From contig OZ024872.1 of assembly GCA_964017185.1 (NCBI GenBank), positions 63,047,817 through 63,111,816 on the forward strand: DNA of 64,000 nt. Direction: 5' to 3'. The notes beneath the pieces were generated by a model. The model did no database searches, had not been told where the DNA came from, and worked only from the letters and a program-made list of their open reading frames with translations. Shown in pieces: positions 6,501 to 41,645 of the stretch. The position numbers and the translations under genes were made by a program. Every line of letters begins with the position of its first letter. Within the stretch, counting starts at the first letter, position 1. Origin of the DNA: Rugalucina vietnamica. Taxonomy: Eukaryota; Mollusca; Bivalvia; Lucinida; Lucinidae.

Positions 6501-9500
6501 AAAGACGCAGATCAGCTTTGCGGTAACCGCGAAGCTGATCATCAGCGCCTTTGTTTTCGCTACTCGGATAGTACAATTCCTCCTCTACTTAAATCCGAAA
6601 TTTCAAGCTTCTAGCTCTTTTCTGAGACTGCACAGACCGGTTTGTGTCGGACCTGGTCGGAAACCATATTGTTGGTTTTTCCCACGAGGTGGCTCAATTT
6701 TGTTTTTCAGAATTAGACACAGCAGAAAGATTAGAAATATATCTCCAAGGTATAAAGTTCTTTTTAAAAATCTCGAATTTTAGGAGGCGATAATAAAATG
6801 CGTATTATAAATGCAAGTTTCTGGCGTGAACTGTTTAAAAAAACAGAGTATTCACCATTTTTGCATTACCTACTGATTCCCAGCTCACCAAAATCAGTAT
6901 TGGAAATACAGGTAACCAAAACCACCCTGACCTCAAGGTCAGGGTGGTTTTGGTTACCTGTTTTTCCAGTATCGATTATTTGTAAGCTGGAAACCAGCCG
7001 AAAATGCAAAATTGATGAATTATTTTCCATTCATTATATTTCCAAAGAATCTCCTTTGCAGAGATCACACTTTCTGGCATTTTGGAGGTTAAATCACATC
7101 TACCGTTATCTCTCTTGAACCGACTCTATTGTAACGAACAGCCGAGCCAAGCCACAGCAAACCCCGTCGATGGAAAAGCATGCTCATCCACCAAGGGTGG
7201 TTTACTGCGCTATATACCTAACACTTACTCTAATCACAAAGTTTCGAGTTTCTAATTTGCATATTACTACCCGCTAATATGCCGCTAATACGTTGCACCA
7301 ACGTATTCTACAAGGGAGACTATCCCGTTACATTACTTCCCCCTCCGAGAAGACTCGCCTCGAGTCTTGGCCTGGGGATTACATGGGTAAGGCAACTCCG
7401 TTCTGGCAGTTGTCATCATCCCACCGCTGCCACCAAATGTAACGAACAGCCGAGCCAAGCCACAGAAAACCCCGTCGGTGGAAAAGCATGCTCATCCACC
7501 AAGGGTGGTTTACTGCGCTATATACCTAACACTTACTCTAATCACAAAGTTTCGAGTTTCTAATTTGCATATTACTACCCGCTAATATGCCGCTAATACG
7601 TTGCACCAACGTATTCTACAAGGGAGACTATCCCGTTACACTATAAACATCCGCCGTCTGGTTTTCAAGTAATCTTATCAAAGGAGCTCTTTTTCAGTAG
7701 TTTGTTTTTGTTTCAGTATGGGACATGGTGTTCAAGGGCATAGATGGGATCAAACCTTCAAATCCTGCTGTCAAGAACCTTACTGATCTGTGGTTGTCAG
7801 ACGCAGCTGAAAACGAGAATGATGCAAGTGTCCTAACATTAACATACTCTCCAGTAAAGATGTTTAAATCAGGCGTCATCAACAGTTGGGGAGCCTATTA
7901 CATCGACACGGTAAGAATGGCGCAGATCAGCTTCGCATATACATCGACACGTTAAGAATGGCGCTGATCAGCTTCGCATATTACATCGACACGGTAAGAA
8001 AGGATCAGCGCCTTTGTTTTCGCTACACGGATAATACAATTCCTCCACTTTCTAAATCCAAAATTTCCAGCCTCCTGCCATCTTCTGTACAATGTAACAT
8101 GTACAGCTCGGTTTGTGTTGGACCTGTTCGTAAACCACGTTGTTTGTTTTCTCATGAGGCAGCCAAGATGTCTATAAAACACTGCAATTCCAGACACTAT
8201 CTGTAACATTGCTAAGGAACACTTATTCTTCAATCAGATGTAGATCTATGCCATTAAATTTATATAAAAAGAAAGAAAGAAAAAAAAATGAAAATAAGGC
8301 ATTTTTAATAACAATACCAGCGTAATAGCATTTTTTCCAGAGCGATACCAGACACGAAAAGCTTTCCTCTTTTTTGTGGTTCAAGTTAATTAAGAAAACC
8401 CGTTGATATCTCTTCTTCAGGTGAAGTATTCTATGTTTGACGGCGGGACAGAGAAGGCGTATGTTGTATTTGATGGGCGAGGATCAGACATTGTATCCTG
8501 GTTTGCTGAGGACAACATTATATATACCAACTATGATATTGATGCTCATAAACCATTGGATGTTTGCTCAATTGACGGGTAACAAAAGTGTTAATAATAT
8601 ATACCAACTATGATAACTATTGGATGTTTGCTCAATTGACGGGTAACAAATAATGTTTTCAATAATACGAGTTAATAGGCAATAATAAGGAATCGAAATA
8701 AATGAACTTTGCAATAGTTTATAAACGCATGGATATTAACAGATTAAAATTGCCACTTTGATGTTAACGTTTACACTAGCCAAAGGACAAAATCTCTCTC
8801 AGGTGTGTCTAAATAGCTGTTAATCGAATATTTATAATCACGGAAATGTGGGATAGAACACATAAGTTTTATACTGAGCCTTGTTTCAGTTGTCAGTGAT
8901 TTACATAATTTGATTTATTCTGAATTCAGAGATTTAAGTAGGCATTGGCAGATCCAGAAAGCAGCAGACCCAGCAGGATGTACAGATACTGATCAGCTGG
9001 GTTGGATGTTGATAAAGGAACCAAGAAATAATGGCACGTGTTCTTGGGATACCAAGCAGGGAAAAGTTAAACCATACTTCCTGTACAATACACAGACAGC
9101 ACCAGCTAACCCAGGTATATATACAATAGGTTTCTTCACATTTGAGCCTGTGCATGAGAAGCTTTTTGACCAATAATTTGGATTTCCGACCAGGTCCGAC
9201 ACAAACCGGGATGTACAGTCACAGAAGATGGATAGAGGCTGGAAATTTTGGATTTAGAAAGTAGAGGAATTGTACTATCCCTGTAGCAAAATCAAAGGCG
9301 CTGATCAGCTTCGCAGTTACTGCGAAGCTGATCTGCGCCTTTGTTTTCGCCAATGCAGATTGATTGTTTTCCCATGCGGCGGCTCATTTTATGAGTCTCT
9401 TTGTCCAGCTATAAAAAGGCCCTAAATAAGGTATGGAAAACAGAATAACAGGAGAATGCTAATTTTATAATACAGCATCAACAAATTCCATGGCTATTTT

Positions 9501-18874: not shown

Positions 18875-20161
18875 CAAACATTTAAATTTGGTAACAAACA
18901 TCCCTCAGAAATGACGAGACCTGAAGAGTTTGAAGAGTTTGTTCCAATGATAAACATGAATCAGTGATAGACAGAATATGTTTATATTTTAACACAGCTG
19001 TATCTTCTTTAATCTGCTCAAATTATTTTGTTTGCATTGTTTTGTGTGATATTTTTAAATTAATAATTATTGATTGTTACTGAGAATAGCAACATCATTA
19101 ATCCAGACATAATTTCATTGACAGCTTCCCCTGAGCCACAATGTGTCCCGTCTTCTTGAATTATCAGTTATTCCTTATGTCATCTTTCCAGCCTGCTGCC
19201 AATTCTGAGAAACTCTTTGAATGACTGGCTTCTTGTGTGCTGCTGAAAATTTAAGAAAAACTGTTCTGAGCTCATTACATAAGTTGAAATATGTGTTGTA
19301 TTGCATACATATAGTAAGTCATATTAGGAGAAATTACATTTTTTTTGAAACTTTTAATCAGGAATTTCCTAAAATGAGGTGTAATCGATTCCAATCATTG
19401 ATACATGATGTTCAACGATGCTTTTAAAATCATTATCATTGCAGAATCAGGAAGTTTTAGCTAAGACAGTTTTGCAATAGATGTAAAAATATATACCTTG
19501 AACTTGTGTTATGAGAAAGAATATGAAGTTGTGCTATGAGAGCTTTCAATTCTTTTAGGGTATTGTCTAAACTTTCTGGTCTTTTGTCGTTTTCAGCTGA
19601 AAGTAAAATCACCGCAAACATAATTCATGTACGCCCCAAGGGCTTAAACAAATTGGTTATATGCATTTAGAATCTGCTTAGTTTTTCACAGGGACACATT
19701 AGATTGAGATTTCTAAACCATGTCAGTACATACTATAATTGTGTTTAAATAGGGTATTTAAAACGTGGATTTTTTGTATATGGATAGACATAATTATCGA
19801 ATATACTGTTCTGTTTAAAAACGAAAGATGTACCTGTTTGTTCTGTTGTTTTGGGATTGCTTTTACTGGCATCTTTATTTGATTGGCCTGCATAAGAATA
19901 ATATTACAGTCACGTTTTATTTTCAGGTGCATGTATGACTGTAAACACTATGTATAGAATCAATGTGTTAATGTAAAATTATATTTTGATAAAATTGAAA
20001 CTGGGCGTGGCCATAATCCAGCAGTATGCACAATATTATGCAATAAAATTATCAGTGACGAAACATACACTGAAGATACTTAAGGCTAGGAATATTGCAT
20101 ATAATCTATGGAACCATAAATATGGTTTTGGTGCCAAACTTATTTGGATGAAAGAAGCAAA
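18875..20161. other. Convergent spacer between genes 1 and 2 (3' UTRs)
   Basis: The stop codons of gene 1 (+) and gene 2 (-) lie 1.29 kb apart. The spacer is AT-rich with no open exon structure. On the minus strand AATAAA occurs near 19876 and 19916 and could serve gene 2. On the plus strand AATAAA occurs near 20041 and could serve gene 1; if so the two 3' UTRs would overlap in antisense. No repeat family was recognised here. Confidence 0.5.
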
Positions 20162-21907
20162 CTAACCTGGCCAGCTGCCATCCCAGTTCATTGCTTGTGA
20201 TGCAGACTGACCAAAGCTTCCAAAACCGCCTACCGACTGATCACTTTTCCTTTCAGGATTCGATGAATTCTCATTCTTTTGCTGACTGATTGCTGCAAAT
20301 GAAAACCAGTGACAAGCACTTATTACGCACATGTAACAATTAGCATTGGGATATTCCAAATGTTATCTCTGCAGCAAAATAATACGCCTACCATTGCCAA
20401 ACTTAAAATATTGTTTGTGAAAGATTATGGAAGGTGTCTTGTAGGCACTAGCGTTTCAAAGTATGACTATATACATGTAAATGTTTAGGAATACATACTT
20501 GGCCAGTTTTCAGACCAATCACCACTCCAGTTTTGGTCTTTACTTGAAACGTGTGTCCCATTAGACGTTTTACCTACAAAGATACTAAATCCTGAGAATG
20601 CCATTTTGACCAATATAATGAATTGGGGCACAGAAAGTAATTGTCGTTTTGGTTAATAAGAAATACTGATTAAGATCAGGTACATGTACTTACACTGAGA
20701 GAACATATCGTAAGCCAAATGAGCAGCTATTTCCCAATAGGCGGCCACTCAGTTACCCGAACTTAACTAAAACTATAAAAACGTACATAATGTGCAAACA
20801 GCATAAACATTCAACATTAAACGTGTTTTAAAACATTTTACCTGGCCAATCACCATTCCAGTTGCTAACTTTTGTTTGCTGCACTGCGCCCATTCCGTAT
20901 GATGACATTCCTGAAACAGCTACTGGTATTGGCTGCAAACCAAGCCCTTGACTATCGGTGTTTGACCCATCCACAGTAGTGTTTTCAACTACACCACCGA
21001 ACATCCGTATATTCTCATTGTTAGGCACACTGGGACCTGCACCTAACCCCAGAATTCCAGGAATACTATTATAAATTGACTGAGAACCGTTTGAAGTATT
21101 ATAGTTAATCGCATGTCCATAATTAGTTTGCTTGAGTGCTGATACTTGTGGTAGCTGTGCTATGTCTAGTGTACTTATACTACCCTGTGTCTGCGATCCC
21201 ACGCCTTCCATACCTGGCAAACCACTGTAACTTGCATCAGGTAGGTTTGTTTCAGTTAGATTGTCTATCAATGGGTTAATAAACGGTTCTGTTAATGTTG
21301 GAACGGCCATTGTCTGTGGTATGATTTGAGTTTGAGATCCAGTCCCTAACATTCCCGGTTTACCACTGTAGACAGCATGTGAATATAATCTGGTATTGTT
21401 AAGAACATTTTGATAAAGATCCGTCATCATTCCTTGGTTAAAGTACGATTCGACAGAACCTGGCTGAGTGGCTTCTGTTTTCACAGCGGTGGATGATGCG
21501 TTTACCGTGTCATTGGTACCACTACCTTCTAGGTTGGCGATCATGTTTGGTCCAAAATTTAGATAAGATGGACTGAATGCTCCAACCGATGATGGAACCA
21601 CTGGGAATGGTTGGAAATTCACACCTGAATAACGAGTATGACAATAGCATGTTAAATTTATAAAGACGCAAACGCTTCCAGGATACATTGAATGCGTCGA
21701 CAAATTCCACAATAAAGAGCAAAATCAAAAGAAGAATCTAAACGAGTGGCGTATCGAAGGCGAGAAAAGAAAACACTGTGATTGATATTTGTGCGAGCTA
21801 AATGAAACTTCCCTATCCAATCTTACCCGCATAAGTGTAGGAATATTCATCCGGATTGTATCCTGGTGTATCTACACCATTGCCTTTGGTGAACTTCTTA
21901 TTGTTTC
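20162..21907 (-). other. Gene 2 exons 17-20: C-terminal region with PG-M-G-x-GSQTQ and NW-x-G-x-WP motifs
   Basis: Exon 18 (21624-20842, 260 codons) contains three spaced motifs, YSGKPGMLGTGSQTQ, YSGLPGMEGVGSQTQ and YNSIPGILGLGAG, and many N-x-S/T sequons. Exons 18, 19 and 20 each finish with a Trp-rich motif: NWNGDWPG, NWSGDWSENWP and NWDGSWPG followed by TAG. The repetition of this ending shows that the last exons arose by duplication. The region follows a furin-like RLRR site encoded at the start of exon 16. Confidence 0.75.
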
Positions 21908-24900
21908 CTGAAATTCATGTTTAAAGTAACTTATAATGGCATCATGAGCAAATATAGATCCATGTTGATAAATAACAGATTCAAATAAAAATATATAGTA
22001 CGTCTACATACATCCATTTCTTTTTAAACTAAGTTGACAGCAGTTATGCCAATATCCGTTCAAGGAATATAAAAAGTAAGATGCATTTTAATTCTTCAGA
22101 CTTTATGACCTCTAATTCAAAGTTAACGTGATATGCGTATCGATCTGAATCTGAATATGAATCTGAATGTTTTACTGGTGACACGCCAAATTGACAATAC
22201 CTCACCGGGGGGGGGGGGGTGCGCCAGGAGGGAAATTAGTCCCTGGCTCTCACAAGAGATGCGAACTTGGACACATCAGACATTTCAGCAGAGGAGATAA
22301 GAGAATCAGGGAGGTCATTCCAGTCCCTGATAGTCTGTGGAAAGAAACTACTTTTGTACGCTTTTTTGCTAGCTGAAGGTATCTGAAAAGCCAAAGAGTG
22401 TTGATTTCTACAACGCCTATTCTTTGGGATAAGGTCATCTGTGGGTATACTGGCTTTACCCTTTAGACATTTGTATAGCGATGTAAGTCTACTATCCTTC
22501 CTCCTTTTCTTAAGAGATTCCCATTATCTAAAATGCCAGTCATGCTCCCAGTTTCAAAAACATAATTTCCCGTCACAAACCTTGCCGCACGATTTTGGAC
22601 CTTTTCTAGTTCTTCCTGGAGGCCAAGAGTGTGAGGGTCCCAAACTGAGCTTCCATATTCCAAGACCGGTCGCACCAGTCCTTTATAAGCTGCTTCTTTC
22701 ACATCTGGGGGACAAGAATACAAATTTCTCCTCAAGAATCCGAGAGTTCTGTTTGCCTTTGTACAAACATTGGAAATATGAGTATTCAATGTCAAATCAT
22801 ATGTGATAGTTACACCGAGGTATTTTATGCTTTCGACGTTTTCTAGTATAGTGCCCTCAAGGGTGTAGTTAGCCTATATCTTACTAGACCGTTTATTTGT
22901 CAGCTGCATCATGTTACATTTGACGGGTTGAAATCTCATTTCCATTTCCTAGCCCAAATGCCTAAACGATCAATGTCTCTCTGAAGTTTCAATATATCCT
23001 CTTCATTCTTGATTTCACGATAGCAAACACAATCATCAGCAAAGAGTCTTATTTCAGACTCAATGTCTGCTGAGATGTCATTTATATACGTGGAAAACAG
23101 CGAGGGGCCGAGAACGGTGCCCTGAGGGACACCCGACACAACTGGAGCCCAATCGGATTTAATACCATTAACCACTACCCTTTGTTGTCTGAAACAAAGG
23201 AAAGCATTTATCCAATTCAGTGTTGTTCCACCTATTCCATTTCAGTGTTGTTCCACCTATTCCATAGCTAAACAATTTGCTTTTAAGGAGTTCATGGGGA
23301 GGAGTATCGAAAGCCTTTTCAAAATCGAGTATAAAAGTGTCGACCTGGCCTTTTTTGTCTAAGATTTTTGCCCAGTCATTTATCACTGTAGTCAACTGAG
23401 TTTCACAGCTATGCCATTTCCTAAATGCGTGCTGCCTGTCCGACAAGAGTTCATATTCATCAAGATGGGCCATAATATTTGAGCATACAATATGTTCAAG
23501 AAGCTTACAAGGAATGCATGTCAAAGAAACAGGGCGGTAATTGCGGGCAAGTGACCTGTCGCCCTTCTTAAACAGAGGACAAATATTAGTAAGAGACCAT
23601 TCTTTAGGAATTTCACCTGTATCAATGATGGGCGAATACCGGACCTAATTCCATAGCCAGTTCTTTTAGGACTCTGGGATGAAGCTCATCAGGCCCTAAG
23701 GCTTTAGACGGGTTTAGGGTTTAAACCTTTGAGAAGTTTGGTCACCCCTTCCTTTGTGACCACAATATCATGCATGAATGGGGCAGATCTATCCATAAGA
23801 GGGACCTGTTTGTATTCACTTTTAGTGAAAACATCCGAGAACTGACCATTAAATTCTTCCGCCTTCTCAAATTCGGATTGTGCAATTCCACTTCCATTTC
23901 TCTTTTTCAACGGGGGATACCGATCACTAAACGTCTAAACAATCATAAAATTATATAAACGTATATATACAACACCTATTATCAGAAAATGGCATTGTTC
24001 TTCCTATTGACATAATTATTTCGGACATTCTGTGAAAAACCTAGAGTGATTAAGAAAATATGGAGATCTAAACACTCTTACGTCGCCAACAGATATACTC
24101 GGCCTGGATCAAACAGCACGTTATGACCCCATAAAATCGCCTGCTGCAAAATAGTTTTACAAAAAATTCTATCACGATGTACCAAATCGGAGAGGTGGAT
24201 ATCGAACAAATCGTAATACGTCTTTTCGACCGCACATAATGACCCCAAAAGTGCCAGTTGGCAATCAGATGTCAGAATCTGTAGATAATTTTAATTTCGC
24301 CATAAGGGGTGATGAACGTAATAACGCAACTGGAATCCAAAAAGTCCTTGACAGTTTTATTCGAAAAACAATTATATATTTCACACAACAACATGAATCC
24401 GACCAAATTATTTGCGTAAACCTTGGAATATGAAACCCATTGGATCCATTGGGTTGTACGCCTGTCCAGTAGCTGTGTTGATGAAATTTCCATGACGCCA
24501 GTTCAACTGTGGTGTGTCCCGTCGTAACCGATCTGAAAGGCAGGAAAAAAGGTCAGATGCAATGTTCTGTACGTTTATCACACTGATTGATTTAATGAAA
24601 TTGATGACTAAAAGACAAAGAAAACATCTCTTTTTATATCGATACTATTTATTTCTAAGGCCTACGCTGTATGATCAGTCTGTATTTAAAAATAAAATTA
24701 TTAATATTATTTTTGGAGGGGGGTTTAAAACATGATATCATTAAGGGCTGTATTGAGTAAATCATACTATAGGCAAAAAGAGTAGTATGATCTCATTTTC
24801 TTACCTGTACCGACAATTGGTACTGATCGGCCACCTGTAAAGCATCCAAAAAGTATTAGTAAAAATGTCCTGCACGAGTCCAGCTTAGACATTTTGAAAA

Positions 24901-27900
24901 GACAGAACAATATTGCATTCAAAAATTATCTTTCAGTACATGATAAATAATCACATTGTTCTTATTGCTTCTTTCACCTGCCTCAGATAACCACCCTGCA
25001 CTTATATCTTCTTAAAATTATCGATTAACGAACTAACGTGACCCTTTTGTACCGAGTATGAATGGAACAGTTATTTTGAATATAGCATAATGTTGTTCAA
25101 ACTGGAAAGACGGTTTGAAATTCATTAATTAAATAAAACAACCACGTATGAGACTAACATTTATATGGGATATAAAGATCTACTTACTTGGGTTAAACAT
25201 ATTGGTCATAGAACCAGTCAGACCACCACCTAAAGAATGATTATAACTGATCATCACAGTTAAAAGTTGTTTAATTGTAGAAAAAAGACAAAGAAATCCT
25301 TTGTCATTAAATTTTATTTCTTTATTAAATTTTCCATTCTTAAATATGTACATTTAGTACATACGTACGTACTAATGACAACGAAAACTGTAATTATGCA
25401 ATCAGAACTGAACCAATAAAACTGAAGATGACACATCAAGATCACTGTTGTACATATGTGGGCTAGATAAGACTTAAATAGTTTACCTATGTTTCCCAGT
25501 TGAATCTTATACTGTAACACTTACCGTTCATGAATCCCATTGGGTCAATTAAGTTTGCACCACCAGAGAAGTTCCTTGCATTACCTTGAAACAAAAGAAT
25601 AAAACCAATAAATCAGAAAGTCAAGAACACGACAAAGACGTAAATTCATTAAGTGAATTCGAACGTTTCATACATAATTCTTTGGGCACTGAAACACTTC
25701 TGTTAAAAGCGCATACCTTGTTACTGCTTTCTTCTGTGGAAAAAATCTGAATGATTGAACAAAATTAAATGAAAACCAAAACATTTTGAGGTAGATGAAT
25801 TTATTGCCACTTAAATAATATAGCAAGGGAATAAGCAAATGTCAGTTCAGAAATAGGTCATCTACCTGACATGGCTCCCATAGGATCCAAAATACTACTG
25901 CCTGCAAAAACAAACAACACAAACTTTTCATATTGGTGCAATAATGATTTTTATATAGAATGATGGGTTTGAAATGACGTAATAAGCAATACGGCGTTGC
26001 ATGTTTTGAAGGAAAACTAAGAATTTAATAGTCCTTCGTAGACAACATGTCGTTTGAATATAATGATGACGATAACGACGCATCTTGCATGGATGAACTT
26101 GCTTTTATTTGACGACAAGTGTAGATTCTGATGTTCTTAATGCCATAAAAAGGTTTATGGTTGCATGATATTAATAGTCATTAAAATAACGTGGATCTGA
26201 TGAAATGAAACTACAATGTCTTATCATTCTACCTGAGCCCGAGTTTCTGCTCCCGCTCGATGATCCCGACCCTGTCATTGATGCTCCTGGATTCATTGGG
26301 TTCATGCTGCCACCACCTGGACTCATAGGATTCATGTTACCCCCAGGGCTCATAGGGTTAATAGATCCACCTGTAGAATTGGTAAAATAATCAGAGATGA
26401 TTGGGTGGAAAGGTTTGAATAAGGATTAATGTGAATTCGATCTGTCATCACTTTTTCGCATCATCGTTTTTACTCGTATTTCAAATGTTTGGCGTCTAGC
26501 GACACTTAGTACAGAGTTCTAAGTGTGCGTCTATCTTACTTTATAAATTATTATTTGACATATTCCGTGTTTAAATAAAAGATATGTTTCCAGATAAAAC
26601 ACGCCTCACCTCCCATCATCGCGTTAGGATTAAACATGCTCATTCCTCCACTGCTGCCACCAGAGGTTGTTCCGCTCCCTCCGCTAGAGCTCCCTCCCAT
26701 CATAGCACTGGGGTTAAACATACTCATACCACCACTACTGCTACCACCTGAGGTAGATGACCCGGAGCTAGTCCCACTACCACTGCCACCACCCATCATC
26801 TGGTTCGGGTCGAAGTTGAACCCACTACTTGTACGAAATGCCAAAATCTCAGTAACTTTATAATAACTTGAAAGCAGATACACGAAAGTGAAAAGACATA
26901 GCTGCACATCTTACATTTGAGCAGAACATGCATACAGACCAAAAGTAAAAAAGGTAAATACAAATCTTGGCACCGAAGATGCTTTTTGAAGGTTTATATT
27001 ATACGTGTGCTCCAAAAATCAACTAGATCTAGTTATCTGTCATGTAATTACAATGTGTAGCACTCTGGCTCTGTCATTTATGTATTTTCGCTTTCATTTA
27101 TGTATTTTTGATCCGAAGATCACCTTACGTATATTTCCATCTTGCATGCCTCGTCAATAAAATCTTACCTTGAGCCAGACCCACTTGATCCGCCAGTCTG
27201 CCCGAAGCCACCTCCAGATCCGCCACCAGTCTGTCCGAAGCCACTCCCTGACCCACCAGACCCGCCTGTCTGACCGCCACCACTCAGCATGGCATTACCA
27301 CCTCCCAGGACTGAACTAGAGCCTGCCATCATGCCCTGAGCTCCACCCATTAGAGAAGAGGCATCCATTTTACTGGAATCAGTTTTTCCACCAGCACCTA
27401 GAAGATAGTAGCGTCGACGACATAGGCACTTAGAAAATCATATTTTTGCACGCAAATGAAGAGACTTACAAACAAGTACCTCATCTGAATACTCTAAAGG
27501 GCTTTAACCGAACTCGTAACATACGTATGGGTTCATAATCAAATTTAAAAGAAGTCAACAAGTGTAGTATAAACTGGAAACAACCGATTATACCATCTTC
27601 GTTAGTTTTAATGCTATTCTGTAAAATATCTGAAGTGTCGTTTAGATCGCAGACTGTGGCTACTGAGTAGGTGTTTTGTATCCAAGGAAGCAATATATGA
27701 ATACTATTTACCTCCAAACATGTTCAAACTCATGCCTTGAGTTCCCATCTGGGTGTTCACTGCACCAGGATCAAAGTTACCAGGCCCCTTTGCTCCTATA
27801 TTTTAAGATAAAAAAACACAAGTAGTTTAACTGATGAGTAAGATATGCTCGCAAAAAGAAAAAGCTGTATGATCGTTGTAATGGCTATTAAACATTTAAA

Positions 27901-30900
27901 TAGGAGGACATCTCAATTTAAACATTCTTATGGCATTAAAACATTCTAACAGCGTGAATATCCATAACAAAATAAGGGTTTATTTTTATTAGTCACTGAC
28001 AAAAAGAAGTACGAGTATTACCTGTCTGAGATTGGGGTCCCATCAGTTGGTTCATGTCTTTTCCTATATTGTATTAAAATTAAAAAGAAAACTTGGACAG
28101 AAACTGGATAATGTGATCAACTCAAGGTTTGCTGTATACTGAGGATGTATAAAAGTGGCGAAAAACAAAAGTAAAAACCAGCCTTGAAATTATATTTACC
28201 ATGCTGAACTTATATACTTTAACATAACTAGAACATTTAAACGACTATTTGATTTTCATTCAGAGAAAAGTTCAGACTTTTCAGACTCACGTCATCTACA
28301 CTTTATAATACAGACAGTCGACTTTCTCCACTTTCAGAGGTACTTATCTAGAGCTCTACACTTCCTCTGCAAGATTGTTTTGATAAACTGGTATGAACTC
28401 CGCAGTGCTTTGTTTATGTGTAACTATATGACAGTTAAAGAGTGATGTTAAAAGCAGCAGAGTGGCTGTAGCACTACCTGTAGGTTTAAACTGAAGCTAA
28501 TTTAACTGCAAGAGCTGTTATCTAAAATCTGGGATTTGAGAACCCCAAAATTAGGGGAGACTGGTAGAGAAAGTCGCCTGTCTGAAAGTGGCATTACAAT
28601 AATAGTTATCCTAACACGTATTAAGGGCCTCGTAAATGTGAAAATCTGCACTTTTAAAACAATTTTGTTGGTATCAGAACTATTTCAGAATCAAAACATA
28701 TGCTGGAAAAAGTCGCAACGAGTTAACTCACCAAGCATTGGGTTAAGCGGATTAAACCCAGAGGTGGCCATAGAGTTAGTTTTGATTGGATCAAATGTAC
28801 CAGTATTTCCACCGGAGCTACCACCAGTCTGGCTTGCACCCGAAGACGAACTTCCACTTCCGCTCTGAGACTGGGTCTGACTTCCAGTCTGAGACTGAGA
28901 ACCAGAAGCGCTTCCAAATGATGCTGCACTTGATCCACCAGAGCCAGTAGAACTTCCAAAAGACGATGCGCTTGAGCCTGAAGGGCTGCCAAAGGACGAC
29001 GCGGCGGACCCGCCTGTAGAGCTACCGAATGAGGATGCTGGGCTAGAACCTGACGAAGAAGAACCTCCTGAACCACTACTACCCATCTTGTTTGGGTCGA
29101 ATGTTCCAGAACCTATTACACATGCAAAAATTATCTAAATGATTTGATAAAGAATATCGGAGCTCCGATCAACGATTTCAAACTGCGATCACGTACATAT
29201 CGGTACTAAACTTAAAGTAAAACATAAGATATAAAATATTGTGTTCTAGGATACCTGCTGATCCAGAGCTTTGAGAACCAGCGCCTGACCCTCCTGAGCC
29301 CGGGGCCGCACTTCCGGACCCTGATCCGGACCCAGTCCAGTTTGAAGCGCCTGGCGATAACTGTTGCTGGGCGTTCATCCCCATACCGTTAGTGAAAGAG
29401 GGAGATGATCCACCGCTTGAAGCTGCTCCCATACCAGAGTTGGCGGCGTTGGGGTCATATTTGCCGCCGGTATTGATCACATTATTAGGATCATAGTGGG
29501 GTAATGAACCACCAGAGGGAGATCCACTGCCTGTACGAGAACAATATAATGAGATATATTGTGGCGTATAGGTAAACAGTTAAACTCACTGCATGTTAAT
29601 TTTGTAGGCCCTAAAGCATACGTTTTATGTGCATAAAACATTGTGTCAAAGATGAAATGTGACAATTTGTTGGAAGTACCTTCTACATCTTGTTAAAGTA
29701 ATAAAAAATTGTCCAGGAATTGCTGGGACGGAACGACAGCTGCAAATGAATTCTAAATCAACAGAATACCACAAAATGACCAGTAAAAGACCTATTACAA
29801 ATCAAATTAACGTTCTGGTAAATCATTCTGGCAGTTGTTCGAAGACCCACACCAAATAAATACTAGTATCTTACTTGTTGCGCTAGATGATGCACCACCG
29901 GATTGAGTGGAACCACCGGACTGAGATTGACTAGAGGTACCTCCGCCCATCATGGCAGCTGGATTAAACATAGATCCCGTACCTGAGGTAAAATAATGCT
30001 GATATTTCAAGGGTGATTTAATAAGTTACTCATGTGATACAGAAAACATCGTCATGGACATCATATTGTATGGCGTTATTATTATTATTATTATTGTTAT
30101 TAGTAGTAGTAGTAGTAGTAGTAGTTGTAGTAGTACATGTATGTTATATTAGTATAATTAGTGTTGTTGTTTGCTGATGCTTTATTTGCCAGCTCTTTTG
30201 TTGCAATTTTTTACCTGAGCCACTCCCACCTCCCATCATGGCGTTAGGGTTGAACATTGACATTCCGCCGGTTGACGTGCTGCCACTGCCGCCATTGAAC
30301 GCATTAGGATTATAACTCTGGCCAACCTGGGAGTTGAATTTGTTTGGATCAAAGTTTCCGAACATGTTGTCTCTCTTATGGTGACGTCTACCTAATAAAT
30401 AATGAAACAACGACTGAAGATGGTGCACATTGTACCAAAGGTATGTTACATCAAATCAGTTTCTTGTGTACGTGTTGTAGAATTTAGTAGGTTTATAATA
30501 ATCGTCAAATTTGTTGCAAGTCTCAAAACATTACCAGTTCCAATTATACCTAAATTAAGGGAATGTCAGAAAAAGCATTTGAAGAAATAAAACTTGCCTT
30601 CGAACGACAACGGGTTTCTGTTCATTTGCTTCATGCGCGTTAATACAGGATGGATATGGGCGTCAGCAAAGTGTAATGGAAATGATGCCTTTTGAATATG
30701 GAACACATCTAAAACTGTCGGATCATGATCATCTGAAACAATCATAAAACTTTATATTGTTACGGTAACCTTGCTCTGCTAGTGATGATAATGTTGGTCA
30801 GGAAAAAGTGATACCCTTAAAAGTTAGTGTTTACCATCAACTTGTAAACGCTAAAGTCCAGACACAGGCAGCAGTCATTGGTGTTGAAACTATAATAATA

Positions 30901-31072
30901 TAAATGTGCGAGGCAAAGAGAGAAACTTGATAATGTACATAATTTACAAATATAACTGACGCTAAACTACATATAAAAAGATGAACTTACCAATGAAGCC
31001 ATTTTGAAAGTTATTCAGCGCCTGGCCTTGAATGGTTGCCCACAAAGCTACAAAAACAATTCTCGAGACCAT
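20162..31072 (-). CDS. Gene 2: secreted Gly/Ser/Asn/Met-rich repetitive precursor protein
   Basis: Twenty exons on the minus strand: 31072-30991, 30732-30598, 30391-30215, 29982-29875, 29530-29255, 29112-28732, 28063-28022, 27795-27712, 27397-27169, 26824-26610, 26370-26233, 25901-25866, 25584-25525, 25229-25188, 24834-24805, 24532-24422, 21907-21827, 21624-20842, 20573-20499, 20292-20162. The phases close to 3216 nt (1071 residues). MVSRIVFVALWATIQGQA is a signal peptide. After a pro-region comes RRHHKR (74-79), then low-complexity sequence built on a degenerate [FYLI]-[ND]-P repeat (MFNPNAMMGG, FDPN, MNPMSPGG), then RLRR (680-683) and a less repetitive C-terminal third. No conserved enzymatic domain is visible. 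The composition and secretion fit structural matrix proteins such as shell-matrix, byssal or mucous proteins, which is inference. All but two junctions are phase 1. Intron 2 is GC-AG. The least certain donor is GTTTAC after 24422. Confidence 0.82.
20692..20822 (-). mobile_element. Family B retroelement fragment, copy 3
   Basis: Short copy (GAGCAGCTATTTCCCAATAG, CACTCAGTTACC, AACTTAACTAAAA, CATAATGTGCAAACAGCA) in the intron between gene 2 exons 18 and 19. Confidence 0.7.
22190..23960 (-). mobile_element. Decayed non-LTR retrotransposon (LINE) reverse transcriptase
   Basis: On the minus strand, broken frames cover much of a reverse transcriptase. About 23704-23910 is an N-terminal segment. About 23168-23524 contains the LLEHIVCSNIMAHLDEY and LDFEKAFDTPPHELL regions (palm domain, D-F-x-K-A-F-D). 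About 22936-23175 contains SGVPQGTVLGPSLFSTYIND and the catalytic box FADD (usually YADD). About 22463-22795 is the thumb/C-terminal part. The order and motifs fit a Jockey/CR1-like LINE. Frameshifts and stops make it non-functional. It sits in the 2.5 kb intron between gene 2 exons 16 and 17. The 3' end may be marked by (GAATCT)n-like sequence at 22142-22168 and by a 13 bp G run at 22207-22219. Confidence 0.85.
24422..30391 (-). other. Gene 2 exons 3-16: low-complexity [FYL]-[ND]-P repeat region
   Basis: Fourteen exons (30 to 381 nt) encode about 640 residues dominated by Gly, Ser, Met, Asn, Pro and Gln. Recurrent motifs are NFDPNKF, MFNPNAMMGG (exons 3 and 10), MFNPAAMMGG, KYDPNAANS, GFNPLNPM, INPMSPGG, LDPMGAM, IDPMGFM, MFNPS and AYNPMDPMG. 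Exon 6 has Ser-Phe-Gly-Ser blocks (SSFGSSTG), and exon 9 has GFGQTGG blocks. Charged residues are rare. Exons vary in length but are almost all phase 1-1, so single exons can be gained or lost without a frameshift. Confidence 0.75.
30075..30136 (+). repeat. (ATT)n/(AGT)n compound microsatellite
   Basis: Six or more ATT/TTA triplets followed by about twelve AGT triplets in the intron between gene 2 exons 3 and 4. Confidence 0.92.
30596..30597 (-). other. Non-canonical GC splice donor of gene 2 intron 2
   Basis: The junction reads GAAG|GCAAGT, the usual context of the minor GC-AG class. The alternative GT a few bases further on would break the frame into exon 3, whose acceptor (TTTATTAG|GT) needs phase 1. 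Confidence 0.7.
30598..31072 (-). other. Gene 2 exons 1-2: signal peptide and pro-region
   Basis: Exon 1 (31072-30991) starts at ATG and encodes the signal peptide and QALNNFQNGFIG. Exon 2 (30732-30598) encodes a non-repetitive acidic/His-containing stretch (DDHDPTVLDVFHIQKASF ... FADAHIHPVLTRMKQMN). This region differs in composition from the rest and is followed by RRHHKR, a likely dibasic processing site, so it may be a removable propeptide. Confidence 0.75.
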
Positions 31073-32631: not shown

Positions 32632-35600
32632 ATGAAATATCTAGTCGGACATTGGTTGCTATTTTTCCGTTTGATCTGCAGTGTTAAAGGTGAGTAAAAT
32701 TAGGTATTTCATCCTCGGTGATTATCGCTGATTATAGCACTCCTGGCTTTGTTCCGAATATTGGATTCTAGCATCCAAAGTATCCGCCGTACAATTCGTT
32801 GCAGTCAGAGTTTGACTTATCGTCGTTTTTAGTCAGCAATAAAAATTTTATCTGAAGGCTGAATGAAGAGAGTCTGCTATTATAGCCTTATATTGCAGTG
32901 CAGTTACTCCAGATATGCACCCAGCAGTTTAGTGTCTCAATCGCACTTTTTATTATAATACTGGAAGCTTTTGCAAAGACAAGCTAGATGCAAAATGACA
33001 TTAGATTTAAGAGTAAAATATTAAGATTAAATGTTTATGATTAATTGATGTTTTAGGTGTTATTTATATTCAATATTTCAGGCCAGTGTGTTGACGACAT
33101 ATCATTTGAATATCCCAGTGCATACAGTTACACCGATGGTGGTGTTAACACTGAAGCAAGTCAGTTTTAGTTAGCCTTTTCTTATAAAATTATTTGAAAA
33201 TAATATTTCTAGCTGCAATTTTGCTTTAAAGTTTCTTTAAAAATGATGGCTCTTAAAATTTGCATAGTTCACAAGTTCTCTGGACGGAGCAGAAACAAAG
33301 GAATAAAAGTCCTATATGTCAGATTAACTTTTCAGATTTAGCTTTTTCGATAGCTTGTCATTTTTCCATCATGCATTGATAATGCATACCCATTAAATAT
33401 TTAAAGTGATATGACATTTACGCATATGTCGGGTTTCTTTAATGATTACCTATCCCACAGCTGCTACTGGCTACCTGTTAGAGCCATCTGACTACCACGT
33501 GCCAGACAGTTGCACGTGCGGTCTATTAAAACAATGGCAGTTCCATGCCGGTGGTGCTGGTGCCATCCAATTACAGGTGTGGAAGAGGCAGGCGTCAAAC
33601 TCTTACTTACTGATGGGAGAAAATTACTACACAGTTCCAGGTAATTTTAGTGTTACATTAAATGTGATCATCTACGACGTCTAATTAGCGATCGGCTAAA
33701 TAGTATCTGTGCTGTTAAATTTAACGAGTATTTGTGTTTATAATTGCCACCACCTATTATTTCAATTGCTACACAAAATCATTGTGACTAACCTCGATAA
33801 GCTGAAAATCAGACATTCTTTGACTAGGCCATTTCATATAGTATTAAACTGCAATAAATTGTTCTTGCAGTCATAAAACCAATATAGAATCATGTAGCCG
33901 AATAAAAAATGAAATGTGTTCATTTTCTTGTTCAAGCGAAAGATGCATGAGACACAACCCCATTTACCTGGTTTACAATCTGTATTTACAGCGTCGGCGA
34001 CCGGTAGACTGATAGAGTTCTTGGTACCGGCGAAAGACAGAATAACGGTCAGGAATGGCGATTTACTTGGATGGTATGATACATATACATAGACCTTGCA
34101 ACCGACTCGCGACCACTTCGCGACAAGGAATCTCTGATATCGCGAAAAGGCTGCATAGGTCAGGGTTTCTTGCCGCCGACTGAAATCAGTCGCGGGCAGT
34201 CTTTTGAACATGCTCAAAAGACTGACTGGGAATGAATTTAATCGTGATGCCAAAGAATGGCGATTTACTTGGATGGCATGATATACCTATTGCATCTTTC
34301 TTTAAGAATAATAATCAGTGTAATATTTGTCTACATGTCCTATCAACATTCATGAGTAACATTCCCCTACGGGATTTTCCCCTGTAGACACAACACTCGC
34401 GTATTTCTTAGCCTATGGCCATGGGAAAAAGAGAAAGTTACAAACAGAAATTGCTCCAAACACGTACTAGCTAAAGTAATGCTGATTGTAAAAATGATAA
34501 ATCGCCCGTGAGAATTTCAGAAATTACCGCAGGCATTTGTAAATGTATCACAGGGGTCTATGTGGGGTTGTGCACAGTTATGGCAAAGTTTGAGGCTGAG
34601 TGGTTGGATACGCTAGTATATGTACTTTAGTGCTGTCATTACATTTATGTTTTCATTTCATTTCATGTCTGTTATGATCTTATACGTGTTGGATTATTTG
34701 CAGATTAAATTTTGAATCTTTGAATCTTTTGTATTTCAAAACTTTCCATGGGGATTTCTACTACAGATAAATATTTTCTTGGCATAGGATACTCTCAAAA
34801 GCTCAAATATTATTTACACCAAGTGCATCAAGTGATTTGACGCCTCTTAGTGTTTTGTTTTAGAAATACAATGCGAATTTGCTAAATACCAGATTACCAA
34901 ATTCCATTTAGTTGTTTGTTATTTCATGTTGCGCGTTCAAAATGAACGTAATAATAACCGCACAAGCCTTTATAGATTATACAGTGTACAACTGAACATT
35001 CACTGTATAAATTTCTAAAAGCGGTGTTTAGTTTTTTGAAATGGCTTTTATGATAGTATGAAACCCAGAATGACGAACGTACGTAAGAACGTATCAATAA
35101 TACGCAATATGGAACTTACTTGTTATTTTTCACCATTTTCTTTCATTCTTCTAGGTATACAGGGGCAGGCGTGAACATTGTTTCATTCTCTCAGGGACCC
35201 CAGAACCAGGTCAGCTCGCCCCAGGACCACTACCCGGACGGTATAAAGATTCAAACCGCGATGTCAGACAGCACAGTCGGGGAGACGTTTGATTGGAACT
35301 CGGGGTCCGTCACCATCCTTGAAGATACAATATACGCCTTTGGTGCAACTGTGGTTTCAAGTGAGTCGTTTATCTACTACATACACCCGCAGTTGTTACT
35401 GACGGTATCTAGGAAATAGCTCTACAATAGAAAATTTCTTCATATATTCAAATTCTAAAATCAGAATTTGAACGTAAACATCTTTACATTTCATATTTTA
35501 TGTAAATATTGTTTTAGCAGTTTGCATTATTGCAAATTATAGAAACTGCAATCACTGGAATGAACGTCTAGATGATGACACGCTTTCTTGCAGACATGTA

Positions 35601-38600
35601 CATGTACGTACACGCTTAATACATATTGTTTAGACACAGCCCCAGAGTTCACCAACCTAGACCACAAAGTGATAATCTACAGTTCGTGGGTAGCGGGTGC
35701 TGTTCTTTACACGGTGTCAGCAGATGACAAAGATAGCTATGATGTTGACTCGCTGGAAATTACCATGGATGATGATATCTCCGGATACTACATGTTTGAT
35801 CTGTCTTCATGTGAGTGGCATAATTTTCGACTGATGATGAAAACATCTTTTCTAACTTGCATACTTTTATTATCTTCAATGTACATTGATTCTTATACGG
35901 AGAAGGCAATTATAGGCATGCCTACGCCTAATCCGAGTCACATATATATTCTTCCATGTTATCATATAAATGCTTGTAACTATGTCTGTAAATACGTTGA
36001 CTAAAATTTCGGAATAAATAAATAAATAAATAAAATGTACAGTCTGATACAAGTATTTTCATGAAATAAAGATATAATGAATAAATAAAAAGAAAGTAAG
36101 ATAAAGCAGTGATGAGGAACCATTATATCCAGAACAAAAGCATACTCTCAAAACAAAATTGGATAAATAGCTAACCTGACTAATTTGGATTGAAATAAGA
36201 AAAGTTGATTGTTTCGTAGTTACTGTAGTAGAAATATTAGCAGTTGTAGTAGGCGATTAACTGTGTTACTTAATTTCATAAGCCTCCCTGTCCTGTTATG
36301 ATTTTTTTTTTTACTTTTTACTTACAAAAAATCTGGTTTCAGATGAAGTGACTCTCATAACGTCATTTCCACCAGAAAACCCGTCAACGATTCTGACATT
36401 TACAGTAACCGACCAGTGCGGCAATTCCAACACAGGGCAGCTTGAAATAATTGTCAAAAACCAGGTATTTTTGAAACCGTATCTTTAATTCATAGATATC
36501 TGGACATGCGATGCTCACTGCTAACCCAGACGATATTGAAACTTTTAAAAGCAAACAATGAAGCTACTTAAGGGATCTTAGATTTATTTTCATTTGTCAT
36601 CACAATGATCACATCATTCTTTCTGTGCCATCGAAAACGGTCGTACCGAAAGGAAAACGATACCAACTGACCATTTTGTGAAAAGCCAAATTGTCCAGAA
36701 TATAACACGGTCATTTTATATTGGTCATTTTAAGTCGGTTGAATCACTTCAGAGACAAAAGCATCTGGTATCATTTCATTTAAATGCATCATGATTCTAA
36801 TTTTAAATTCCAAACTATCATCCTTTCTGCTTCATTAGTTTTGTAGATTCACATATTACATGAACTTTATACTATCAGTTTCCAGTTGTTTCCAATCTCC
36901 CCAAAGCCATCTCTATAGCAGAGGAGACGACCACAGAAGTTTTGCTCGCCACTTTAACTATAACTGACGCGGATGACTCTATATTCACATCGGAAAACTT
37001 TAACATCGACCCTAATCCATCATCGATAGAGATACGCTCCGAAGGATCAAATAGTATGTGGATCTCATGGTGTCAGTCACCTTCAGATAGGCATTAACAA
37101 AATTTTTTCTTGCAGCTAGGGCCACGAAAAAAGGCTAAAACATTAACTAATTTGCAAGACACGAAACAGCTAACATCAGTCTGCTTTGCCTTTGGAAGAT
37201 TATGTATTTTGTCGTTGCTCCGGAGTTCCTTCAGAGGAGATGGCAATAATTTTGGTATCCTTACCATAAAGATTTTAATTTTGATAGAGTTCCAACCTTG
37301 ATTTGCGATTCCTATTCTTGCAGCAAGAAGCATATATTCCACAGCCGGTGCTAACTACGACTATACCAGCCAACAGATATACATCATGGACTTCAGTGTA
37401 AATGATGGAACGGATGTTTCAAACACAGGCTATGCACTACTCTACATCACAAAGAATGACCCGCCGAAAATAACCAATTTAGGACGTAAGTGAAATCAAA
37501 TACGAAATTAGTAAATGACTCTTTTACAAGAAATATGTATTGCTTGAGAAATAAATGCTTAAAATTTTATAAATCATTTGTTGATTCTGATTCATGTTGT
37601 CTGGTGTCCAGAATTTTCATTACAGGTCTTATTATGGTTATTTTTGTTTTATTAATTTTATAAACGTGCACGTATATATCCATGAATCAATAGCAGCCAT
37701 GATGGACAATATGTCCATATTCGCAGAAAAGAAACGCCAAAACTAAAATCAGGCAGTATCAAACAACCTGCATGTAAAACTTAGGTTATAGTTTTTTATG
37801 GCTTCATATTATTTTGCTTTCTAGAGGCGGCCTACATGAACACATCCTTTGTGTCAACAGTTAACGGAGAAACCTTGTTCACAATAGAAACATCGGATAC
37901 AGAATCTGACGCTTTAACATATACAATCACATGTGATCCTAGCGCTTGTCCAATAGACAAAACTCCAAAAGGTATGAGTCCAAATATACTGTCCAAATAT
38001 ACTATAGCGCATCTACAGAAAATCCAAGGAGCAGAAATATAGTTTAGGTAATAGTAAGTTTTTTTGGCCACCGGTACTACAATATATCAGCCGTTAAAAA
38101 GAGAAACAAAGCTATGCAACATAATGTGAACTTCATTCGTTCATAAATATTAGTTAGCACACGATTTCTGTAGTACGTAAATCTCCTACATGTATATGTA
38201 CCTGTCGATTACTCTACTACCTGGAATACCATTGCTAGTATTTGCATTTATGTTACAAGTTTTAAAAAACGACAACCAAACACATTATTAATGAACATTT
38301 GGACAACTCAGAACCAGCAGCGTTTATATAATACATGTATATAAAACTGTTTTCAGACGGAGTAATCAAGACAACATCAGATTTTCAAGGTCTATACGAG
38401 CCAGGCTATGATCTGACAATAACTATTGAGGATCCCACAACTGCACTCGCGGATACAAAGGCTTTCACTATCCTTGTTCAAGGTATGTATTTCTTAAGTG
38501 TAGATTAATAATCAAATCAAATATATTCGTTAGGCAATATTAAATCCAAACAATTGTTAGTTCACTTAACAAGTACTTTTTGTTAGGATTCGAAATCACA

Positions 38601-41600
38601 CCGTACGTCTTTTAGGTACAATGTATCTGTTGTAGAAGACGTGTATTATCCGTGTTTTATTCATTACCATCGTTTGGTACATCTTGTGGCAGCATAAAAA
38701 GGTCACTGCAATTAACAGGTTCAATCTCAAGAATATTTTATATTGCTCGCTTGCGGATGTTATTGTAAATAAAACTAGAAGGAGTTTTCAGAGGAAAACA
38801 TATGTCCCCCCTTTCTGCCCCAAACAACTTTTAATTTTGTAAAGTTTTACATATAACCCTGAAAAATATATACCAACATACATTTTAAATTAAAACCAAT
38901 ATATACCAACAGACATTTTAAAATATCACATGTTTCAGTTTTCCATATTTATAAAGTTTGACTGTTATTTAGTTGTTTTGACCACCTCGGCCCCAACCTT
39001 AAATTTTTACAAAAATGCAATTTTGAACATAAATCAAGGGCCATAACTGTAAGGTCGTTTCACGAAATTTACCCATCTACAATCCCAAACCAATCCTTGC
39101 CGGTATCAACTTATATGCAAAGTTTGAACAAAATCGGTAATAAACTACTGAAGTTAGAGAACGGAAATGAAAAAAAAGCAATTTTTAACACCTCAACCAA
39201 GGGCCATAACTCTAAGGTCATTTGACCAAATTTACCCATCTACAATCCCAAACCACTCCTTGCCGGTATCAACTCATATGCAAAGTTTGAATAAAATCGG
39301 TCAAAAACTGCTCAAGTTAGAGAGCGGAAACGAACAAAATGCAATTTTTAACATCAATCAAGGGTCATAACTCTGAGGTCGTTTGACGAAATATACCCAT
39401 CTACAATCCCAAACCACTCCTTGTCGGTATCAACTTATATGCAAAGTTTGAACAAAATCGGTCAAAAATTACTCAAGTTAGAGAGCGGAAACCAACAAAA
39501 TGCAATTTTTAACAAAGGCCATAACTCTCGGGTCGTTTGACGAAATTTACCCATCTACAATCCCAAACCACTCCTTGTCGGTATTAACTCATATGCAAAG
39601 TTTGAAGAAAATCGGTCAAAAACTACTCAAGTTAGAGAGCGGAAACGAACAAAATGCAATTTTTAACCTCGATCAAGGGCCATAACTCTAAGGTCGTTTG
39701 ACGAAATTTACCCATCTACAATCCCAAACCACTCCTTGCCGGTATCAACTAATATGCAAAGTTTGAAGAAAATCGGTCAAAACTACTCAAGTTAGAGAGC
39801 GGAAACGAATGGAGACACCTGGATTTTCAAACAGTTAATTGACCTTTGTGACCTTGAAAATTAGGTCAAGGTCACCGAAATCTAATCACTCCATTCGGCT
39901 GTCCCAATGAAGTTTCTGTGCCAGTTTGGTCTAAATCCATTTAGTGGTTCAGGAGATATCGTGCAGACAAAAAGCTACGCCGCCGACGCCGACGGGATCC
40001 ACACCAAAAACAATATGTCCCCCCACCCCTTCGGAGGGGGGACATAATAAAACTGAGATCCTTTAAGAGCAGTGAGCATATTAATGAGAATAGGGATGGG
40101 CCATACCGCAGTTTCGGCCACTCAACCCTCTTCAGTGACCCTTTACATCTGGCAACATGGAGCCAAAGAGAATTACAGAAAATTTGGTAGTCAATACAAA
40201 GACTTGAATTATCCAAATGGGGCTAAATTTATTAAATGTTGGTTAGAAAATGAATCTAAACCGATAATAAATTTCTGATTTCTCAAAATACTCTGGCTGA
40301 TCTCGAAGGACCAAAAGGAAAATATAATCTGCACTATGAATGATGTATGGGGAGACATTTAGGGCCGCCACATAGCACGACAGCAGCTGCAGTAATAGCA
40401 AATAAAATAAACACAGATCTTTTAAGAGCAGTTCGAAGCATATTAATGAGAAAGGGGATGGGCCATACTACGCCTGTTTCCATTGATGTAACAATTTTGC
40501 AGGTGGTGTCATAAGTACGCCCAATAATGCTTTCAATTATTGTAACACTTCCTGATAAAGGTCAGTTCACAAAATGCTAACGTGTTTTTTTTAAATTTTA
40601 GAAATTACATACAGACCACAAATTACCAACCTACCGCTGGTAGACCCTGTGTTGATATCCGAGGGTACTCCCCTGGACACTATTGTGTACACGTTGAGTT
40701 ACATTGATCTAGACAAGAGTGAGACTCACACTATATATGCTGAACTTGACCCTGGATGGGCGTGGAATTACTTCGCATTGAATTCTACAAGTAGGTATTA
40801 TACTTTGAAAGATCAAGTAGTAGTCAGTTTTAATAATAAGCAAAAACGACAAAAGAACTAAAGAAAGTTTCATCACACGAAAGAGAAGTTTATTCGTAAG
40901 CTCTGGTCCCGAGGTTATGAAACTTGTTTCATGCTCAGCTGAGACTAAAATTTATCCTGCTAATAAATGTTAAAATGCCAACAATTAACATTTATAAGCA
41001 GGATAAATTACTAGTCTTTGAGTTTTAAACCTGAATTTTAAACCTGAATTTTCCACTAATTTGAACTATTTCAACATTTATGAGCAGTTGAAATTTCATG
41101 CTCAGCTGAGTCACAATTTACAAGGCATAACAATCATCTTAAAAAGAGAGAATCAAAATATGGTGAAAACATATACCCACTGCTGGACGCTTGTTTCCAT
41201 CGATGTACATGTAACAATTTTGCAGGTGGTGTCATAAGTACAGCCAATAATGTGATAGACTACGAGTTTCTTGATTCCTACACAGCAAATTTAACCATAG
41301 TTGTGACTGATAGCTTTGGACCAACATCCGCAACAGTCAGTATTGAATTTGGTGACATCGATGAGGCGCCATACTTCAGCCAAACCAAGTATACGCTAGT
41401 GCCAGCGGGAAACGGAACAGTATGCATTTTGTTATAATAATCTTTTAATTTAATTCGAAAAAAAAAATACTTATATTATCCTGGTGCTTGATCCGATGCC
41501 ACTTTCTTGTCGTTGTATAATCTGTTTGTTTGTCTATCTATCTCTCGAGAGTACCAAGGAAGATTTACTCTGCTTATTGGGGCACCTCGTTCAATAAAGT

Positions 41601-41609
41601 GTTTATTTG

Positions 41610-41645
<36 letters not shown>

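Follow-up and report, generated by a model that had tools for sequence, protein, structure and literature searches.

Silk-like structural proteins, as described in PMC4944945, are mostly confined to a single lineage and are picked out by the SilkSlider rule, which asks for a signal peptide, the lack of a transmembrane segment and at least 25% glycine within 80 residues, naming SignalP and TMHMM for the signal and membrane criteria and counting glycine once the signal has been removed. Most of the insoluble proteins identified from the nacre, prism and ligament of Pinctada fucata have methionine-rich regions, and by the account given in PMC7591529 the Pinctada ligament proteins are methionine-rich without an acidic stretch. 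Abductin of the scallop hinge ligament is described as containing cysteine, a GGFGGMGGGX repeat and very little proline (PMC13052691), Pif as a shell matrix precursor that is cut into two products (PMC5379566), and NPNA units as type I beta-turns in crystals that are populated in solution too (PMC5715787). The current study concerns a gene on the minus strand of a 64,000-nucleotide stretch of DNA from the lucinid bivalve Rugalucina vietnamica (contig OZ024872.1 of assembly GCA_964017185.1, forward-strand positions 63,047,817 to 63,111,816; hereafter the window), which encodes a secreted-looking precursor with a glycine- and serine-rich repeat core. We propose that its product is a secreted structural polymer, made as a cleaved precursor whose sticker-and-spacer core assembles outside the cell, a reading to which we assign a probability of roughly 0.6.

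The gene is read as a chain of 20 exons running from a start codon at 31072 to a stop codon at 20162, and its translation, which the original prediction from the letters of this stretch had called for, gives 1,072 residues with no internal stop. Eighteen of the 19 introns are phase 1, the exception being the phase-2 intron between exons 9 and 10; of the donors, 18 read GT and the one following exon 2 reads GC, AG closes all 19 introns, and the shortest exons measure 30, 36, 42 and 42 nucleotides (nt). In the assembly searched (1.09 gigabases, 47 contigs) a second copy, hereafter copy 2, lies about 75 kilobases away on the same contig and in the same orientation (G000:C4:63154134-63136183, minus strand). 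Its 20 exons stand in the same order, and the GC donor, phase-2 intron, exon 16 stop and final stop all recur. Over exons 1-16, 689 of 718 aligned residues agree between the copies, with a non-synonymous divergence (dN) of 0.020, a synonymous divergence (dS) of 0.198 and a dN/dS of 0.10; the corresponding values for exons 17-20 are 0.029, 0.080 and 0.36. Silent changes are in excess in both parts (Fisher p ~1e-32 and 0.0013, respectively, from rounded Nei-Gojobori counts). The comparison shows that purifying selection maintains the gene, the constraint being evident for exons 3-10 and for the whole; for the 3' part, conservation by itself tells little. We hold with very high confidence that the gene is real, because an open, phase-consistent chain is accompanied by a second copy that keeps its exons, splice sites and stops under an excess of silent change. 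The original prediction had described about 20 phase-1 exons, some as short as 30-42 nt, and its description of the stretch proved correct in nearly every detail, copy 2 being an independent witness to the chain. Its further suggestion, that units can be shuffled freely, is something that the equal phases allow; shuffling itself was not observed, the same exons standing in the same order in both copies.

To the eye, residues 1 to about 18 of the protein resemble a signal peptide; hydropathy over 19 residues peaks at 1.32 in the segment starting at residue 1, and its top value after residue 25 is 0.88. A propeptide runs from the signal-like stretch to a Lys-Arg pair at residues 78-79, which is retained in copy 2 with a changed flank (RHHKR versus HQHKR). 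The repeat core occupies residues 80 to 680 (601 residues) and is bounded exactly by this pair and by RLRR (681-684), both of which are likely convertase sites as judged from their residues. The core consists of 25.8% glycine, 24.3% serine, 7.7% methionine, 7.5% asparagine and 5.5% proline, and has a grand average of hydropathy (GRAVY) of -0.46. Only 25 of its residues are charged (14 Asp/Glu, 11 Lys/Arg), the longest Asp/Glu run is 2, and it contains no cysteine and three tyrosines, tyrosine making up 1.7% of the whole chain. The core contains 16 instances of the motif [FYL][ND]P (2,000 residue shuffles: mean 0.2, maximum 4), 21 of the wider [FYLIM][ND]P (shuffle mean 0.52, maximum 5) and four of MFNP.AMMGG (shuffle mean 0.0). 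The wider motif is found in 10 of exons 3-15, with none in exons 7, 9 and 15, and comes in two classes, aromatic (FDPNKM, YNPNAF, FNPNAMM) and aliphatic (INPMSP, LDPMGAM). Some occur in exons 16, 17 and 18 as well; the motif is mostly limited to the core and exons 16-17. In the 388-residue tail after RLRR, two [FYL][ND]P motifs are unremarkable, this number being reached by 186 of 2,000 shuffles. The tail holds ten N-x-S/T sites, compared with two in the core, and NW-x-G-x-W words end exon 18, exon 19 and the C-terminus, the exon 19 word being TW in copy 2. The prediction of a signal-peptide precursor with a degenerate, charge-poor [FYL]-[ND]-P repeat of some 600 residues, rich in glycine, serine, methionine and asparagine, is thus upheld, the signal being judged by eye. 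As regards the SilkSlider rule, glycine reaches 43.75% in the richest 80-residue window and at least 25% in 290 of 974 windows; by hydropathy alone, the chain looks to have a signal peptide and to be free of membrane segments. The features of the locus are as follows, in window coordinates.

30991..31072, minus strand: exon 1 (residues 1-27), with the start codon and a stretch resembling a signal peptide; also in copy 2
30598..30732, minus strand: exon 2, propeptide, with the GC donor; copy 2 agrees at 44 of 44 residues
30215..30391, minus strand: exon 3, end of the propeptide, Lys-Arg site and first three motifs
30372..30377, minus strand: Lys-Arg, residues 78-79, likely propeptide cleavage site (predicted)
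30228..30257, minus strand: one MFNPNAMMGG unit
29875..29982, minus strand: exon 4; present in copy 2
29255..29530, minus strand: exon 5; present in copy 2
28732..29112, minus strand: exon 6; present in copy 2
28022..28063, minus strand: exon 7, 42 nt; present in copy 2
27712..27795, minus strand: exon 8; present in copy 2
27169..27397, minus strand: exon 9, phase-2 end, the sole such intron; present in copy 2
26610..26827, minus strand: exon 10, with FDPNQMMGG, MFNPSAMMGG and MFNPNAMMGG; present in copy 2
26233..26370, minus strand: exon 11, units INPMSP, MNPMSP and MNPMNP; present in copy 2
25866..25901, minus strand: exon 12, 36 nt; present in copy 2
25525..25584, minus strand: exon 13; present in copy 2
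25188..25229, minus strand: exon 14, 42 nt; present in copy 2
24805..24834, minus strand: exon 15, 30 nt; present in copy 2
24408..24532, minus strand: exon 16 as last exon of the 720-residue form, ending FIFQGLRK-stop; stop also in copy 2
24422..24532, minus strand: exon 16 as internal exon of the 20-exon form, donor GTTTAC; weakest of 19 donors
24519..24530, minus strand: RLRR, residues 681-684, furin-type site bounding the repeat core at its C-terminal side (cleavage predicted); same in copy 2
24356..24361, minus strand: AATAAA downstream of the short-form stop; also in copy 2
22146..23917, minus strand: retroelement insert in intron 16 that includes part of a reverse transcriptase (RVT_1, E 4.4e-11), not in the gene product
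21827..21907, minus strand: exon 17; present in copy 2
20842..21624, minus strand: exon 18, 783 nt, tail sequence bearing the majority of the N-x-S/T sites; present in copy 2
20499..20573, minus strand: exon 19; present in copy 2
20162..20292, minus strand: exon 20, ending NWDGSWPG-stop; stop also in copy 2
19916..19921, minus strand: AATAAA downstream of the long-form stop; also in copy 2

Near 25730 a possible exon of 17 nt was set aside on inspection by eye, as its inclusion breaks the frame.

The gene has two possible 3' ends. In both copies exon 16 runs into an in-frame stop 14 bases past the donor required by the 20-exon chain, and an AATAAA starts 47 bases after this stop. The required donor scores -2.23, the other 18 scoring 0.94 to 8.92 on a matrix that was built from those same 18, which therefore score themselves and are favoured. 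Because exon 16 has its own stop and AATAAA, and the donor of the 20-exon form is the weakest, a form of 16 exons and 720 residues is likely, at least as likely as the 20-exon form, and exons 17-20 would represent an alternative, less certain end. Of the predicted chain of about 20 exons, the open frame stands, while exon 16 may terminate itself. Exons 15 and 17 are both phase 1, so that skipping of exon 16 is also possible. Intron 16 measures 2,514 nt with its insert in copy 1 and 733 nt in copy 2, which has the empty site; when the two are compared, the flanks of the insert overlap by 8 bases.

We propose a series of linked steps for the action of the protein. A propeptide of about 60 residues would hold the chain soluble inside the cell, and cuts at Lys-Arg and RLRR during exit would release the core. 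The stickers of the core may be its [FYLIM]-[ND]-P-x-x-M units, in each of which aromatic and methionine side chains would flank an Asx-Pro turn, with flexible glycine/serine linkers between one unit and the next. The released core would then assemble extracellularly, forming a matrix that is insoluble and bears almost no charge. As its 601 residues include no cysteine and three tyrosines, disulfide, dityrosine and 3,4-dihydroxyphenylalanine (DOPA) links are unlikely, and therefore methionine and aromatic contacts should dominate, the assembly proceeding without disulfide or tyrosine links. Depending on which of the two alternative 3' ends is used, the product would be either short or extended by a glycosylation-rich tail. 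From the type of sequence we infer a secreted, self-assembling matrix role, and as a first guess we would place the protein in the organic framework of the shell or in the hinge ligament. The original prediction had likewise suggested a structural material (shell, byssus, mucus or pearl matrix); the sequence type and a glycine content within the silk-like rule as given in PMC4944945 speak for the structural part, and the choice of a specific material goes beyond that support.

Glycine- and serine-rich DNA easily yields open frames on either strand, and examples are present on the plus strand, which raises the question whether low-complexity frames have come together in this chain by chance, or whether the gene has decayed. 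With 20 exons and 19 splice-site pairs retained in both copies and silent change in excess, this is already refuted by the two-copy comparison, short of RNA, and is extremely improbable. The divergence between the copies is uneven, with a dS of 0.09 for exons 1-2, 0.26 for exons 3-10, 0.04 for exons 11-16 and 0.08 for exons 17-20; in introns 1-15, of which 14 were aligned, identity ranges from 0.51 (intron 9) and 0.63 (intron 6) up to 0.98 (intron 15), intron 10 being left unaligned at 239 versus 7,966 nt. Because of this mosaic, the pattern suggests that the copies arose by tandem duplication with gene conversion. The window as a whole (1-58600) is largely duplicated on the same contig (G000:C4:63116949-63194729), again as a mosaic, with 100% identity in the open frames at 55161-58368 as against less than 80% in some other stretches. 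Rather than a paralogue, copy 2 could be a second haplotype that the assembly failed to merge, as the open frames within 55161-58368 are 100% identical to their counterparts and the dS of exons 11-16 is so low; the dS of exons 3-10, the unequal lengths of intron 10 and the presence of both copies on one contig in the same orientation argue otherwise, and the mosaic divergence suits tandem duplication with gene conversion, which leaves the haplotype explanation unlikely. The argument from selection holds whether copy 2 is a paralogue or a haplotype. The region may alternatively contain two genes, one consisting of exons 1-16 and ending at 24408 and the other consisting of exons 17-20 with its own first exons missed. 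The stop and AATAAA of exon 16 in both copies, the weakest of the 19 donors at the joint, and a shift in composition and dN/dS at the exon 16/17 border speak for such a division. Exon 17, however, opens in phase 1 as do the preceding exons, the exon 16-17 gap in copy 2 is merely 733 nt, and a scan of this gap for a phase-1 first exon gave no convincing candidate, the donors of the best ones being weak or absent; we consider the division improbable, and a single gene with two 3' ends is preferred.

The nature of the secreted product is open to a different interpretation, in which the glycine/serine core and the tail rich in N-glycosylation sites form a hydrated, sticky layer, as a component of a secreted gel, adhesive or egg coat. 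The core is hydrophilic on average, as its GRAVY indicates, and the ten N-x-S/T sites of the 388-residue tail point in the same direction; yet the core itself holds merely two such sites and very little charge, and its regular methionine/aromatic motifs suit cohesion. Byssal adhesives of the DOPA type are rich in tyrosine, and with three tyrosines in 601 core residues and 1.7% over the whole chain we rejected this identity; tyrosine is too scarce for a DOPA adhesive. A gel, adhesive or egg-coat role is possible but doubtful, and the cleaved, self-assembling structural polymer remains our preferred reading. Several observations weigh against that reading or parts of it. The signal peptide and the cleavage sites were judged by eye rather than with a predictor, and the Lys-Arg site is dibasic and not a strict furin site. 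Between the copies, exons 11-16 show just 4 silent changes and 2 replacements, and identity in introns 11-15 is 95-98%, so that selection is unproven for exons 11-16 taken alone. The joint between exons 16 and 17 is weak. An AlphaFold model of exon 18 gave a mean predicted local distance difference test (pLDDT) value of 31.6, none of the 260 residues reaching 50 (two sequences), an outcome that is compatible with disorder and neither supports nor excludes a fold, and thus proves nothing. Lastly, the turn proposed for the motif depends on an analogy with another protein.

Searches for relatives returned no named family, in agreement with the prediction, for the 720-residue form in Pfam (E 0.01), for the frames of exons 2, 6 and 18 in Pfam (E 10), for the N-terminal 145 residues in the PDB (E 1) and for nine peptides taken from the core or the tail in open papers. 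Within this genome, the first 145 residues gave eight matches, namely three exons per copy, in addition exon 4 in copy 1, and a hit on contig C12 that has an E-value of 7 and an internal stop, and a 210-residue piece of exons 16-18 gave six, three per copy; both protein queries thus recover just the two copies. Pattern matches to exon 18 numbered 14 in prokaryote genome contigs and 13 in viral contigs, none of which was confirmed as a relative. A frame with NPM words at G000:C4:63254889 was rejected, as it belongs to a charged open frame of 1,259 residues and looks unrelated. An undescribed family is plausible from these comparisons, which included no eukaryote collection. The claim that the protein is undescribed survives for the family and fails for the kind: we read it as a new family within a known kind, silk-like structural proteins, and an undescribed kind is not supported.

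Elsewhere in the window, open frames at 4824-9173 (plus strand) are retained in the second copy and share a repeated wording, VF[ND]G.G ... SWF..DNI.Y[ST].Y; they are perhaps exons of a repeated secreted protein. At 33415-43339 (plus strand), frames that appear cadherin-like by eye, with a possible membrane exon at 43097, are also retained in the second copy, and Pfam found no cadherin in the two of these frames that were scanned. A repeat of about 120 base pairs (bp), seen at 758-881 and in many other places, is scattered over the region on both strands and is probably a short mobile element. In the same assembly, the mitochondrial contig (G000:C47, L033; 30,680 bases) carries two tandem arrays (214 bp x 13.7; 181 bp x 21.5), COX1 by Pfam, 12 protein genes on one strand by eye when COX1 is included, and three tRNA-Met genes; its gene order, as read by eye, is unlike the ark-shell blocks given in PMC5031957. 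A molluscan origin is supported by this contig with its one-stranded genes and by a joined myosin peptide from the same genome, whose best PDB matches are eight chains of squid and scallop (E 6.9e-85 to 1.3e-84, followed by 5.5e-74); in the three alignments displayed, the peptide and the chain are not identical.

The mollusc silk-like proteins, so far known mainly from transcriptome fragments, gain here a precursor whose exon borders and predicted cleavage borders are placed exactly, together with a naturally occurring pair of copies to compare. With a core without cysteine and nearly without tyrosine or charge, the protein would isolate a mode of assembly by methionine and aromatic residues plus turns, which could be tested with one recombinant fragment, and its presence in the ligament or the shell framework, if true, would help to explain the methionine richness of insoluble mollusc matrices. 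Whether isolated NPNA-like turns, aromatic and methionine stickers, an uncharged, cysteine-free glycine/serine chain, two cleavages and alternative 3' exons that set a glycosylated tail amount to a new principle of assembly in animal materials is a speculative and rather unlikely proposition.

In comparison with known systems, the protein resembles the silk-like proteins of PMC4944945 in being secreted-looking and repetitive, with a glycine-rich window and no membrane segment by hydropathy, and differs from them, as they are described there, in its [FYLIM][ND]P-x-x-M unit and its Lys-Arg and RLRR borders. A collagen-like identity was rejected, the longest G-x-y run being three triplets. Like NU-5, LMP and others of Pinctada fucata as presented in PMC7591529, it is methionine-rich and of low complexity, and like the ligament proteins among them it has no acidic stretch; NU-5, in contrast, has glutamate-rich regions by that account, whereas our core has 14 acidic residues in 601, a comparison made by description and not by sequence. 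With abductin, following PMC13052691, it shares richness in glycine and methionine and an expected disorder, but FGGMGG and GGMGGG are both absent, cysteine is lacking and proline reaches 5.5% in the core, and an identity with abductin was rejected on these grounds. In a fashion similar to Pif and BMSP (PMC5379566), the secreted precursor is expected to yield separate matrix products by cutting, although, unlike Pif and BMSP, it shows no VWA or chitin-binding domain (no Pfam family in the 720-residue form or the exon 18 frame). Finally, the recurring NPNA tetrapeptide recalls the repeat of the Plasmodium circumsporozoite protein (PMC5715787), a physical analogy for which we claim no homology: in that protein, as described there, NPNA is arranged in tandem, whereas here it stands isolated between methionine or aromatic residues and glycine/serine spacers.

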